Source: Streptomyces sp. TN58 (GTDB taxonomy: Bacteria > Actinomycetota > Actinomycetes > Streptomycetales > Streptomycetaceae). Taken from it: DNA of 64,000 bases. The stretch covers positions 4,842,001-4,906,000 of the forward strand of contig NZ_CP018870.1 in the NCBI RefSeq assembly GCF_001941845.1, read 5' to 3'. Below, in pieces: positions 54,297 to 61,348 of this stretch. Both the position numbers and the translations under genes were made by a program. Under the pieces are notes generated by a model. That model searched no databases. It saw nothing but the letters and a program-made list of their open reading frames with translations, and had not been told where the DNA came from. Within the stretch, counting starts at the first letter, position 1, and every line of letters starts with the position of its first letter.

Positions 54297-54713
54297 TCAG
54301 AGCGGCCGGTTCTGCTGCTCGATGTACTGCTTCACGATGCTGAGCGGTGCGCCGCCGACGGAACCGGCGAAGTACGAGCCGGACCACAGGCGTTGTGCCC
54401 GCCAGTAGTGGCGGACGAGGTCGGGGAACTCCTGGCGCAGCCGCCGGGAAGAGACGCCCTTGAGGCTGTTGACCAGCTTGGACACGGCGACCTTCGGCGG
54501 GAAGTTCACAAGGAGGTGGACGTGGTTGTTCTCGCCGTTGAACTCGACCAGCTCGGCCTCGAAGTCCTCGCACACGGCCCGCATGATCTCCTCGCACCGC
54601 GTCAGGTGCCGGTCAGCGAAGACTTTGTGTCGGTACTTTGTCACGAAAACCAAGTGGACGTGCATGCGGAAGACACAGTGACGACCAGGACGAACGTTCT
54701 CATCGATGCTCAT
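54297..54713 (-). CDS. tnpA: IS200/IS605 Y1 transposase TnpA
   Basis: A 138-residue HUH single-strand transposase. The HUH pair is His64-Val-His66 (NNHVHLLVNF) and the catalytic tyrosine is Tyr130 (IVKQYIEQQ). MHVHLVFVTKYRHKVF and SLKGVSSRRLRQEFP are standard family segments; length is normal. It cuts and joins the element's hairpin ends on single-stranded DNA. It is divergent from tnpB, with 25 nt between the starts. It appears functional. Confidence 0.95.
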   Translation of the reverse strand: MSIDENVRPGRHCVFRMHVHLVFVTKYRHKVFADRHLTRCEEIMRAVCEDFEAELVEFNGENNHVHLLVNFPPKVAVSKLVNSLKGVSSRRLRQEFPDLVRHYWRAQRLWSGSYFAGSVGGAPLSIVKQYIEQQNRPL

Positions 54714-54738
54714 AAACCAATTGTGTATCGTGATCCGC

Positions 54739-55947
54739 GTGCAGCTTCGGTACAGCTTCCGCCTGTACCCGAGCGCCGGTCAGCGCAGCGTGTTGGCGAG
54801 GGCGTTCGGGTGTGCGCGGGTGGTCTACAACGACGCGCTCCGCGCTCGGGAGACCGCCCGCAGCGAAGGCATGCCGTTCCCGAAGACCGCAGACCTGTCC
54901 AAGGCGCTGATCACCGAGGCGAAGAACACCCCGGAACGGGCCTGGCTCGGCGAGGTCTCGGCGGTCGTCCTCCAGCAGTCCCTGCGCGACCTGGACACCG
55001 CGTACCGGAACTTCTTCGACGGGCTCAAGGGCAAGCGCCCCCGTATGGGCGCACCCCGGTACAAGTCGAAACGGGACACCCGGCAGGCCGTCCGCTTCAC
55101 CGCGAACGCCCGCTGGTCGATCACGACCGGCGGGAAGCTGCGCCTGCCGAAGATCGGCGACGTCAAGGTCAAGTGGTCCCGCAGTCTGCCCTCCGCGCCG
55201 TCGACGGTGACGGTGGTCAAGGACAGCGCGGACAGGTACTTTGCGAGCTTCGTCGTGGAGACCGGCCCGGAGGAAGTCCTTCCCGAGGTCACACCCGAGT
55301 TGGGCATCGATCTCGGGCTCGGGCACTTCGCGGTCCTCTCCGACGGGACGAAGGTCGACAGCCCGCGCTTCCTGCGCCGCGCCGAGAAGCGCCTGAAGAA
55401 GGCACAGCGCGCCCTCTCCCGCAAGGAGAAGGGCTCCAGCAACCGGAACAAGGCCCGGATCAAGGTCGCCCGCGCACACGCGAAGGTGGCCGACGCGCGC
55501 CGCGAGTTCCACCACCAGCTCTCCACGAAGCTGATCCGCGAGAACCAAGCGGTCGCCGTGGAGGACCTGGCGGTGAAGGGACTCGCCCGCACGCGCCTGG
55601 CCAAGTCCGTCCACGACGCCGGATGGTCGGCGTTCGTGAACATGCTGGAGTACAAAGCCGCCCGGTACGGGCGCACCTTCGTGAAGATCGGCCGCTTCGA
55701 GCCGACCTCCCAGGTGTGCTCGCAGTGTGGCGTGAAGGACGGCCCGAAGCCGCTGCACGTCCGTGTGTGGACGTGTGGGGCGTGCGGGGCGGTCCTGGAC
55801 CGGGACATCAACGCGGCGGTCAACGTCGCCAAGGCGGCCGGACTGGCCGTGCCAGCCTGTGGAGCGCAGGTAAGACCGGGACTCGTCCCGGCACCGCGCA
55901 GCGAACCAGGAACCCACCCGACACCGCAGCCTTCAACGGCGCGGTAG
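54739..55947 (+). CDS. tnpB: RNA-guided endonuclease TnpB (IS605 OrfB)
   Basis: A 402-residue protein from GTG 54739. The RuvC catalytic triad is intact: Asp191 in LGIDLGLGHFAVLS, Glu275 in AVEDLAVKGLART and Asp356 in DRDINAAVNVAKA. The zinc finger is CSQCG...CGACG (Cys327/330/346/349). The N-terminal HTH-like segment QLRYSFRLYPSAGQ is typical. TnpB cleaves DNA using an RNA transcribed from the tnpB 3' end and the element's right end (established for ISDra2). GTG 54730 is an alternative start. Confidence 0.93.
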   Translation: MQLRYSFRLYPSAGQRSVLARAFGCARVVYNDALRARETARSEGMPFPKTADLSKALITEAKNTPERAWLGEVSAVVLQQSLRDLDTAYRNFFDGLKGKRPRMGAPRYKSKRDTRQAVRFTANARWSITTGGKLRLPKIGDVKVKWSRSLPSAPSTVTVVKDSADRYFASFVVETGPEEVLPEVTPELGIDLGLGHFAVLSDGTKVDSPRFLRRAEKRLKKAQRALSRKEKGSSNRNKARIKVARAHAKVADARREFHHQLSTKLIRENQAVAVEDLAVKGLARTRLAKSVHDAGWSAFVNMLEYKAARYGRTFVKIGRFEPTSQVCSQCGVKDGPKPLHVRVWTCGACGAVLDRDINAAVNVAKAAGLAVPACGAQVRPGLVPAPRSEPGTHPTPQPSTAR

Positions 55948-58530: not shown

Positions 58531-58554
58531 AAATTCGCATCTCACATACAAATT
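58531..58554. promoter_or_regulatory. NsrR-like operator before nsrR
   Basis: AAATTCGCATCTCACATACA followed by AATT, sharing AAATT-x-GCATCT with the hmpA operator. It lies 15-38 nt upstream of the nsrR ATG, fitting autoregulation. Confidence 0.65.
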
Positions 58555-58751
58555 AAGGCTCGGGTGCGATCGCGGCTTGGCCGAAAACAATCGCCGGCCC
58601 GGACTCCCCGCCCCTCGTGGTAGGGAGTTCGGTCCGAGAGGGTGCCCAGTCCGGAGCGGCTGTAGTCCCACCCTTTTGTGTAATGGTCCAACCACGCTGC
58701 GTACTGAAAGGCTGCCTTCGCAGATCCATGGAGTGATCGAAAGGGAAAGAC

Positions 58752-60158
58752 ATGTCGGTCCAGGCAGGTTCCGAGTCCGAGGCCCAGACACCGCAGCGCA
58801 GTCTGGGTACGGCGGCCGCACGGAACTTGGCAACCACGACCAAGTCCGCGCCGCAGATGCAGGAGATCACTTCGCGGTGGCTGCTGAAGATGCTGCCGTG
58901 GGTGTCGGTGCAGGGTGGCACCTACCGGGTCAACCGCCGGCTGACCTACTCGGTCGGCAACGGCATCGTGGAATTCGTCAAGACCGGGACCCAGGTGCAG
59001 GTCATCCCGGCCGAGCTCGGCGAACTCCCGCTGCTGCGCGACTACGAGGACCTCGACGTCCTCGGCGAGCTCGCCCAGCGGTGCCGCCAGATCGACTTCG
59101 AGGCCGGCCAGGAGCTCACCTCCTTCGGCAGCCCCTCCGGCGAGGTCTTCCTGCTCGCGCACGGCCGCATCGACCAGATCGGCCCCGGCCCCTACGGGGA
59201 CGACGCCGTCCTGCGGACCGTCGCCGACGGCGCCTACTTCGGCGAGGATTCGCTCGTCGATGAAGAATCGATTTGGGAGTACACCGCCCGCGCCGCCACC
59301 CCCGGCACCGCGCTCGCCCTCTCCCGGCAGGACTTCCAGCTGCTGGCCGACCGGGTCCCCTCGCTGCGCGAGCACCTGGACCGCGTGTGCTCCATGCCCG
59401 CCCAGCGCACCAACAAGTACGGCGAGGCGGAGATCGACCTCTCGGCCGGACACATGGGCGAAGCCGTTCTGCCCGGCACCTTCGTGGACTACGAGGCCCG
59501 CCCGCGCGAGTACGAGCTGTCCATCGCCCAGACGGTCCTGCGCGTGCACACCCGCGTCGCCGACCTCTACAACCAGCCGATGAACCAGACCGAGCAGCAG
59601 CTGCGGCTCACGGTCGAGGCGCTGCGCGAGCGCCAGGAGCACGAGATGCTCAACAACCGCGACTTCGGCCTCCTCCACAACACCGACTACGACCAGCGCA
59701 TCCAGCCGCACGACGGCGGCCCCGGCCCCGACGACATGGACCAGCTGCTCAGCATGCGGCGGGGCTCCAAGCTCTTCCTCGCGCACCCCGAGGCCATCGC
59801 CGCCTTCGGCCGTGAGTGCAACAAGCGCGGGATCCACCCGGGCACGGTGGACGTCGACGGCACCCGGGTGACGACCTGGCGCGGGGTGCCGATCTTCCCG
59901 AGCAACAAGATCCCGATCAGCGACGCCCGCACCACCTCCATCCTGTGCATGCGCACCGGCGAGGACGAGCAGGGCGTGGTCGGCCTGCACCAGCCGGGCA
60001 TCCCGGACGAGATCGAGCCGAGCATGTCGGTCCGCTTCATGGGGATCAGCGAGCAGGCGATCATCTCGTACCTGGTCACCGCCTACTTCTCCGCCGCGGT
60101 GCTGGTACCGGACGCGATCGGCGTACTGGAGAACGTCGAGATCGGCCGCCGGCGCTGA
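58752..60158 (+). CDS. family 2B encapsulin nanocompartment shell protein
   Basis: A 468-residue shell protein with an HK97-type fold. After a disordered N-terminal arm (residues 1-35), the capsid fold is split by a cyclic-nucleotide-binding-like insert at about residues 95-215 ([32 protein letters not shown]); the capsid fold resumes with [50 protein letters not shown] and ends in an Ile/Val-rich segment. The insert defines subtype 2B. Its phosphate-cassette Arg-Ser/Thr-Ala is not seen (SIWEYTARA), so nucleotide binding is doubtful. A polyprenyl synthetase, a known family 2 cargo class, follows after 5 bp. Confidence 0.92.
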
Positions 60159-60163
60159 GCGAG

Positions 60164-61207
60164 GTGAACACCATCGCGACCGGCGAGGGCCAGGAGGCCG
60201 CGGCCCTGCTGGAACGTACGAGAGAGGCGGTCGACCCGGAACTGCGCCGCACCGTCGAGAGCCTGCCGGGCGGCATGCGGCGCGTGGCGATGTACCACTT
60301 CGGCTGGGAGCACGCGGACGGCACCCCGGCCGAGGGCAGCGCCGGCAAGGCCATCCGGCCGGCCCTGGTACTGGCCGCGGCCCAGGCCCTGCAGGACCAC
60401 GGCCTCGGCCCCGTCGACCACGCCGTACGGGCGGCCGTCGCCGTGGAGCTGGCACACAACTTCACGCTGCTCCACGACGACGTCATCGACAAGGACGTCC
60501 GCCGGCGGGGCCGGGCCACCGCGTGGACCGTCTTCGGCACACCGGACGCGATCGTCACGGGCGACGCCATGATGGCGCTCGCGCTGAGACTGCTCGCGCA
60601 GGACCCGCACCCCGCCGCGGCGGCGGCCTCGGCCCGGCTCTCCGCCTGCACCATCGAGCTGTGCGCCGGCCAGCAGGCCGACTGCGCCTTCGAGCAGCGC
60701 CCGGACGTCTCGCTCGACGAGTGCCTGACCATGGCGACGGCCAAGACGGGGGCGCTGCTGGGCTGCGCGTGCGCGCTGGGCGCGCTGTACGCGGGGGCCG
60801 GACCGGACGAGGTCGACGCCATGGACGCCTTCGGCCGGGAGGCGGGCCTGGCCTTCCAGCTGATCGACGACCTGATCGGCATCTGGGGGGATCCGGGGCA
60901 CACCGGCAAGGCGGCCGGGGCCGACCTGATCGCCCGCAAGAAGTCCCTGCCGGTGGTGGCGGCCCTCACCTCGGGCACCCGGGCGGGCCAGGAGCTGGCC
61001 GAGCTGTACGCCGGCCCCATGACCGGGGACGACGTCCGCAGGGCGGCCGACGCCGTGGACCGGGCCGGCGGCCGCGACTGGGCGCAGGCCCACGCCGCCG
61101 ACCGGATGGGCCGGGCGGTCCAGCAGCTGTCCCGGGCCGTTCCGGACCTCGGGGCGGCGGGCGGGCTGCTGGCGCTGGCGGAGTTCGTGACGCGCCGTAC
61201 GAGGTGA
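60164..61207 (+). CDS. polyprenyl synthetase, predicted encapsulin cargo
   Basis: A 347-residue trans-isoprenyl diphosphate synthase. The first Asp-rich motif is LLHDDVIDKDVRRRGRATAW (DDxxD), the second FQLIDDLIGIWGDPG (DDxxG, common in Streptomyces); GKAIRPALVLAAAQAL gives the KxxRP substrate loop. Phe at five residues before DDxxD suggests a short-chain (C15-C20) product. GTG 60164 lies 5 nt after the shell stop; the ribosome binding site is weak, implying coupling. The 30-residue N-terminus is acidic and helical, with no long disordered targeting arm unless translation starts further upstream. Confidence 0.9.
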   Translation: MNTIATGEGQEAAALLERTREAVDPELRRTVESLPGGMRRVAMYHFGWEHADGTPAEGSAGKAIRPALVLAAAQALQDHGLGPVDHAVRAAVAVELAHNFTLLHDDVIDKDVRRRGRATAWTVFGTPDAIVTGDAMMALALRLLAQDPHPAAAAASARLSACTIELCAGQQADCAFEQRPDVSLDECLTMATAKTGALLGCACALGALYAGAGPDEVDAMDAFGREAGLAFQLIDDLIGIWGDPGHTGKAAGADLIARKKSLPVVAALTSGTRAGQELAELYAGPMTGDDVRRAADAVDRAGGRDWAQAHAADRMGRAVQQLSRAVPDLGAAGGLLALAEFVTRRTR

Positions 61208-61242
61208 GCGCCACGGCGTGGTGACGCATCCCCGCACGGGGG

Positions 61243-61281
61243 AGGCCCGTTTCCGGTACCGCACGGTGCCGGAACGGGCCT
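61243..61281 (+). terminator. terminator after the encapsulin-polyprenyl synthetase operon
   Basis: AGGCCCGTT-T-CCGGTACC pairs with GGTGCCGGAACGGGCCT around GCAC, with one bulge and one wobble, 36 nt after the stop codon. Confidence 0.8.
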
Positions 61282-61348
61282 TACCGCATCCGGGCGCCAA
61301 CTCTAGGATCGCTGACGGTTGTTGACACGTGAGCGAAGGGTGAGGCCA

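Follow-up and report, generated by a model that had tools for sequence, protein, structure and literature searches.

The window analysed here is a stretch of 64,000 nucleotides from Streptomyces sp. TN58 (contig NZ_CP018870.1, positions 4,842,001 to 4,906,000), a strain whose genome of 7.585 Mb forms one contig. Towards the right end of the window lie two genes, for a family 2B encapsulin shell protein and a polyprenyl (isoprenyl) diphosphate synthase, which from their sequences are predicted to specify an isoprenoid nanocompartment, that is, a shell with an enzyme inside. The original prediction had rested on exactly this pairing of a family 2B shell with an intact synthase 5 bp downstream, and the pairing was borne out, as the two proteins exceeded the cut-offs of NF041163 and NF041169 and the gap between their genes is indeed 5 bp. 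The features of the locus are as follows.

58667..58686, plus strand: conserved upstream element CCCACCCTTTTGTGTAATGG, likely part of a promoter or operator
58752..60158, plus strand: family 2B encapsulin shell protein, 468 amino acids, NF041163 match, stop codon TGA at 60156-60158
59049..59393, plus strand: cyclic nucleotide monophosphate (cNMP)-binding-like insert of the shell, about residues 100-214, with Trp175 at the phosphate-Arg position (PF00027; alignment to solved inserts)
59397..60149, plus strand: HK97-fold C-terminal part of the shell, residues 216-466 (PF19307, 456.7 bits)
60164..61207, plus strand: polyprenyl diphosphate synthase, family 2 encapsulin cargo, GTG start, 347 amino acids (NF041169, PF00348)
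60476..60490, plus strand: first Asp-rich motif of the synthase, DDVID, its three Asp invariant in 81/81 rows
60866..60880, plus strand: second Asp-rich motif, the variant DDLIG, its two Asp and Gly invariant in 81/81 rows
61244..61281, plus strand: GC-rich hairpin, probable terminator without a T-run, from its structure score

The shell protein matched NF041163 (encap_f2b) with 754.8 bits against a cut-off of 400, over residues 17-466. PF00027 gave 46.8 bits on residues 115-199, ahead of the PF19307 part, an arrangement co-linear with the solved chain 9bhu that identifies a cNMP-binding-like insert in the E-loop. The nearest solved structures were all 2B chains, the best being 9bhu (657 bits over residues 1-465; also 9bhv and 9bi0), with which the window shell has an RRRG motif in common. 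By their motifs, two of the solved 2B chains, 9bje and 9bix, correspond to Sl-Enc1 and Sl-Enc2, the family 2B shells of S. lydicus described in excerpts of PMC12407261, and both chains have the same Trp and Arg in the insert as the window shell. The A-domain motif was of the RR type in 80 of the 80 shells examined, window included; in this the window shell is like Sl-Enc2, which assembles alone, and unlike Sl-Enc1 with its TVWK. The S. lydicus operon appears in those excerpts as a two-component one of the xylulose kinase type, whereas the window has no second shell gene within 10 kb, and the only other 2B shell over the cut-off in the genome is at C1:6940777, about 2.04 Mb away. The RR-type motif, as in the self-assembling Sl-Enc2, speaks for reading the window operon as a one-component system.

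Two further observations concern the shell gene. Its N-arm carries SLGTAAAR (window 58800-58823; SLGT[A/S/T]AAR in 74/80 shells), which resembles the cyclase consensus GPTGLGTSAAR given in excerpts of PMC8346489, and cargo may mimic the shell arm. Separately, the Rfam family RF02735 (Sernc350 antisense RNA) matches window 58783-59290 on the minus strand, antisense to the shell gene. An antisense RNA was rejected, as RF02735 also matches the shells of L011, L051, L075, L121 and L131 and not the shell-less locus L067; the match most likely reflects homology of the shell-gene coding sequence, and the published Sernc350 target, SACE_3976, may itself be a 2B shell.

The downstream protein matched NF041169, the "family 2 encapsulin cargo polyprenyl transferase" model, with 486.4 bits against a cut-off of 450, and its PF00348 match (193.4 bits) together with both Asp-rich motifs identifies it as a trans-isoprenyl diphosphate synthase. 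The solved polyprenyl synthetase 3nf2 aligns with cargo residues 12-346 and has DDLLG at the second motif, the DDLxG variant being common to the two; by eye, the look-alike of 3nf2 in the window genome is at another locus (L007), away from both 2B shells. Among the listed synthase orthologues with a name, most are called family 2 cargo by NCBI, and the closest named relatives include several Streptomyces virginiae records at 94-95%. At positions -5 and -4 of the first motif (DDxxD) are Phe and Thr, both invariant in relatives, and under general chain-length rules these residues suggest a C20 product. The enzyme is therefore probably a short-chain prenyl diphosphate synthase with C20 as its predicted product; the same rules disfavour a supply of geranyl diphosphate (GPP) to the 2-methylisoborneol (2-MIB) pathway, which had been another candidate role. 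Against six relatives, the ratio of nonsynonymous to synonymous divergence (dN/dS) was 0.10-0.26 for the shell and 0.16-0.22 for the synthase, values indicating that both genes are under purifying selection.

For comparison, 80 loci were fetched, the 30 best enzyme matches after the window itself and 50 hand-picked ones among the other matches listed (392 genomes), a choice that under-samples distant, possibly armed enzymes and makes the linkage count one for close relatives. In 79 of the 81 loci (window plus relatives) the synthase gene was immediately preceded by an intact shell gene, and the adjacency persisted in relatives as distant as about 70% identity for the shell and 69% for the synthase, so that the synthase has what is expected of a cargo: a family 2 shell adjoining it and a linkage retained in relatives. 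In a sample of the genus, the cargo family was over the cut-off in 186/246 genomes and a 2B shell, with any cargo type, in 240/246. Excerpts of the 2021 survey PMC8346489 put the number of family 2B operons with a polyprenyl transferase at 900, almost all of them from Actinobacteria, and the operons described there (recognised by NF041163 plus NF041169) have in common with the window a shell with the insert, an adjacent synthase and an actinobacterial host. Given those 900 operons, the frequency of the cargo in the genus and the orthologues already annotated by name, the window operon is of a known kind, ordinary in Streptomyces.

A likely counterpart has a history of its own in S. coelicolor. 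Published accounts describe eshB (SCO5249) as a paralogue of eshA (SCO7699), both being up-regulated in development (PMC3878966), place eshA in an operon with the 2-MIB genes in S. venezuelae and describe it as activated by BldC (PMC6428758), name SCO5249 as a possible AtrA target (PMC13170358), and mention SCO5250, the locus tag that follows it, with isoprenoid-pathway genes (PMC7494193). The pair eshB-SCO5250 is likely the orthologue of the window operon, going by description and numbering.

As the original prediction had it, no terpene cyclase, methyltransferase or second shell was seen in the shell-synthase unit, which is flanked by a GNAT acetyltransferase gene downstream and a divergent Rrf2 regulator gene upstream. 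The prediction had also ended the transcript at a terminator. A strong hairpin is there (region 61225-61305, -47.1 kcal/mol, z -4.0), but there is no T-run, and a scan for T-tails called no terminator at it, leaving this function plausible. Ahead of the shell gene, the consensus CCCACYCTTTTGTGTAATGG was found with 0-4 mismatches in 79/79 loci with an intact shell, 81-121 bp away from the start codon, versus 7-11 mismatches in a base-shuffled control (one shuffle per locus, keeping composition only). The shell and upstream counts do not include L067 and L098, the two loci without an intact shell, although both hold the element. A genome scan allowing up to 3 mismatches gave one match, the element's own site with 0 mismatches; a backwards control pattern also gave 1. 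On its sequence, then, the operon is a compact unit of two genes, preceded by a conserved element.

The insert had been singled out in the original prediction for its lack of the Arg-Ser/Thr-Ala of cyclic-nucleotide sites, a lack thought odd. Alignment to solved inserts upheld the absence, but there is little odd about it: in 79/79 intact shells linked to a polyprenyl transferase (PT), the phosphate-Arg column is occupied by Trp175, with an Arg at position 180, and the sole exception in the 80-row shell alignment is the window genome's own 2-MIB shell. Trp likewise stands at this column in 9bhu, 9bix and 9bje, with the site reading W-S-Q-T-A-T-A in 9bhu versus W-E-Y-T-A-R-A in the window. Excerpts of PMC12407261, citing a preprint, report no binding of cyclic nucleotides by the 2B insert. 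Since Trp is found in all 79 shells and in the solved chains, and non-binding is reported for 2B, the missing Arg is, as far as sequences tell, a trait of the family.

Much the same happened with the second supposed oddity, a cargo that starts without a long arm. The arm is absent, there being 15 residues before residue 16 and the NF041169 match beginning near residue 13, but a short N-terminus is the usual state among the relatives: the residues before window residue 16 numbered at most 25 in 66/78 loci, 26-49 in 8, and at least 50 in 4. Tail length was assigned by a simple ribosome-site score in 78 of the 81 loci (L073 and L084 gave no candidate; L067 has no shell), and of the 12 longer tails, those of L088, L112 and L118 fall outside the arm clade and are possibly miscalled. 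Ten rows labelled by eye as arm-bearing form a single, fully supported branch of the enzyme tree; one of them, L128, was assigned to the group manually, the score having picked a short start for it. The arms of four of the ten (L121, L123, L127 and L129) share an ERR/RR stretch followed by Ile, perhaps a loading signal. In excerpts of PMC8346489, disordered N-terminal domains of 50-100 residues are described on 2B polyprenyl transferases, a usual rather than defining character, in contrast to the short tail of the window cargo and most relatives; the description does not hold for the relatives fetched, and part of the survey's long domains may come from over-long start calls.

A check of upstream starts had been suggested, and none was indicated. 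A hidden cargo start inside the shell gene was rejected: an overlapping arm would lower fourfold-site divergence towards the shell 3' end, and no such drop was seen among 8 close loci, where the final two shell windows gave 0.285 and 0.224 versus 0.074-0.252 in the other ten. The database relative P0001 (99%) starts 3 residues further up, where the window codon is CTG; the window tail could be longer by these 3 residues, which would leave the conclusions unchanged. In ten relatives from the window's clade, as in the window itself, at most 5 bp separate the shell stop codon from the first cargo start, where the two do not overlap outright, and this proximity suggests that the synthase is made by coupled translation.

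Based on these results, we consider it probable that the locus is a one-component family 2B encapsulin operon, encoding a shell of about 28 nm that houses the predicted C20 prenyl synthase. Shell size, symmetry and insert position are taken from other 2B shells, as given in excerpts of PMC12407261. Sixty copies of the shell protein would assemble by themselves into a T=1 particle about 28 nm across, on whose outer face the insert sits above the two-fold pores. The synthase, produced by coupled translation, would be captured inside through the enzyme surface or its short N-tail VNTIATGEGQEAAALL, and not through a long arm. Isopentenyl diphosphate and allylic diphosphates would enter, and the prenyl diphosphate, most likely C20, would exit via pores gated by the insert, which may sense something other than a cyclic nucleotide.

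Several results pull the other way. Loading is the step without support: neither a loading signal nor a long arm was identified in the window cargo, and none of 80 upstream tails held a targeting motif of the GLGT type that terpene cyclases have. The C20 call depends on general chain-length rules, and the model for the geranylgeranyl diphosphate synthase IdsB, NF045549, stayed below its cut-off (361.6 versus 475 bits). The enzyme may also work outside a shell, as two relatives kept an intact synthase after theirs was lost or broken. L067, from a draft assembly of about 720 contigs, has a clean deletion of the shell and an intact synthase behind the same upstream element; in L098 (G371) the shell is without most of its middle. 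Both genomes carry an intact 2-MIB-type shell elsewhere, with a 2-MIB-synthase-like gene beside it, and these cases, two in number, favour a free enzyme or help in trans.

The first alternative is, accordingly, that the synthase is an operon partner free in the cytosol, the shell enclosing something else or nothing. It draws on the same lack of a recognised targeting motif and long arm, and on the two intact synthases. We regard it as unlikely, however, given that the genes are adjacent with the synthase second in 79/81 loci, and that the shell is lost or broken in only 2/81, in genomes that each carry another 2B shell.

Help in trans is the essence of the second alternative, in which the shells of the PT and 2-MIB loci co-assemble and the synthase shares a mixed shell with 2-MIB synthase. 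The second 2B shell of the window genome belongs to a 2-MIB-type operon (L011:7727-11678; G000:C1:6940726-6944677) with the order shell, 2-MIB synthase with GPSGLGT in its N-terminal region, and GPP methyltransferase, the names being read from translations. Between the genome's two shells, identity is 73.5% over the HK97 part and 47.3% over the insert, near the averages of 70.3-74.6% and 48.5-51.9% given for Enc1 and Enc2 sets in excerpts of PMC12407261, where one such pair is reported to co-assemble, and both relatives without a working PT-locus shell have an intact shell of the 2-MIB type. Nevertheless, both shells are of the RR type, as is the self-assembling Sl-Enc2, and neither should need the other, while the two shell losses may mean nothing if 2-MIB-type shells are common anyway. 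The 2-MIB pathway, moreover, needs a C10 prenyl diphosphate, from which the predicted C20 product differs. A mixed shell at this locus thus seems to us improbable.

That the operon belongs to a nitric oxide (NO) response, through the divergent nsrR-hmp, is more doubtful still. The two genes adjoin the shell in 38/81 loci (and are 2.8 kb off in 2), with nsrR adjoining in 23/26 rows of the window clade, but neither was found in the fetched stretch at 40/81 loci, among them L082 with a stretch of just 5.4 kb. The cassette label, with L093 counted although its contig ends after nsrR and before hmp, requires at least 8 changes on the tree. The divergent Rrf2 regulator resembles NsrR but falls below the NsrR model cut-off, as does the flavohaemoglobin-like upstream protein below that of the NO-inducible model. 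The upstream element is present in 38/38 NO-gene-adjacent and 41/41 non-adjacent loci, and because it is kept with or without the NO genes, regulation of the shell operon looks, on sequence grounds, independent of them, in keeping with the earlier suspicion that they were neighbours by chance. An imperfect 11-1-11 inverted repeat seen by eye at window 58532-58554, at the 5' end of nsrR, could be that gene's own operator. Further off, at window 54297-55947, is an IS200/IS605-type pair, a Y1 transposase (minus strand) and a TnpB-like protein (plus strand).

Finally, the older EshA/CAP-family view, that the shell protein is a cAMP-responsive regulator and no compartment, can call on the PF00027 match, on depositors who name 9bix and 9bje Crp/Fnr regulators in the PDB, and on a 2013 paper in which the Sernc350 target, a terpene-cluster gene with a cyclic nucleotide-binding domain, is called a CAP-family factor, but it is hardly credible for a protein with a shell-model match over residues 17-466, the shell and insert domains and no DNA-binding domain in Pfam at E 0.001, no phosphate Arg, and an insert of a kind reported, in the excerpts of PMC12407261, not to bind cyclic nucleotides.

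A wider proposal is rather unlikely to hold as a whole: that in most Streptomyces the enzyme is loaded by way of its surface or a short conserved tail, without the disordered arm regarded as typical of 2B cargo, that the insert has an invariant Trp/Arg pocket for a non-nucleotide ligand, and that shells of the 2-MIB and PT loci may mix in trans. With the one-component compartment as the preferred reading, the window operon would be one copy of a compartment widespread in Streptomyces, and its relatives offer targets for comparative work: the short N-tail that replaces the arm, the Trp175/Arg180 pocket of the insert, the upstream element, and the two strains in which nature has already removed or broken the shell.
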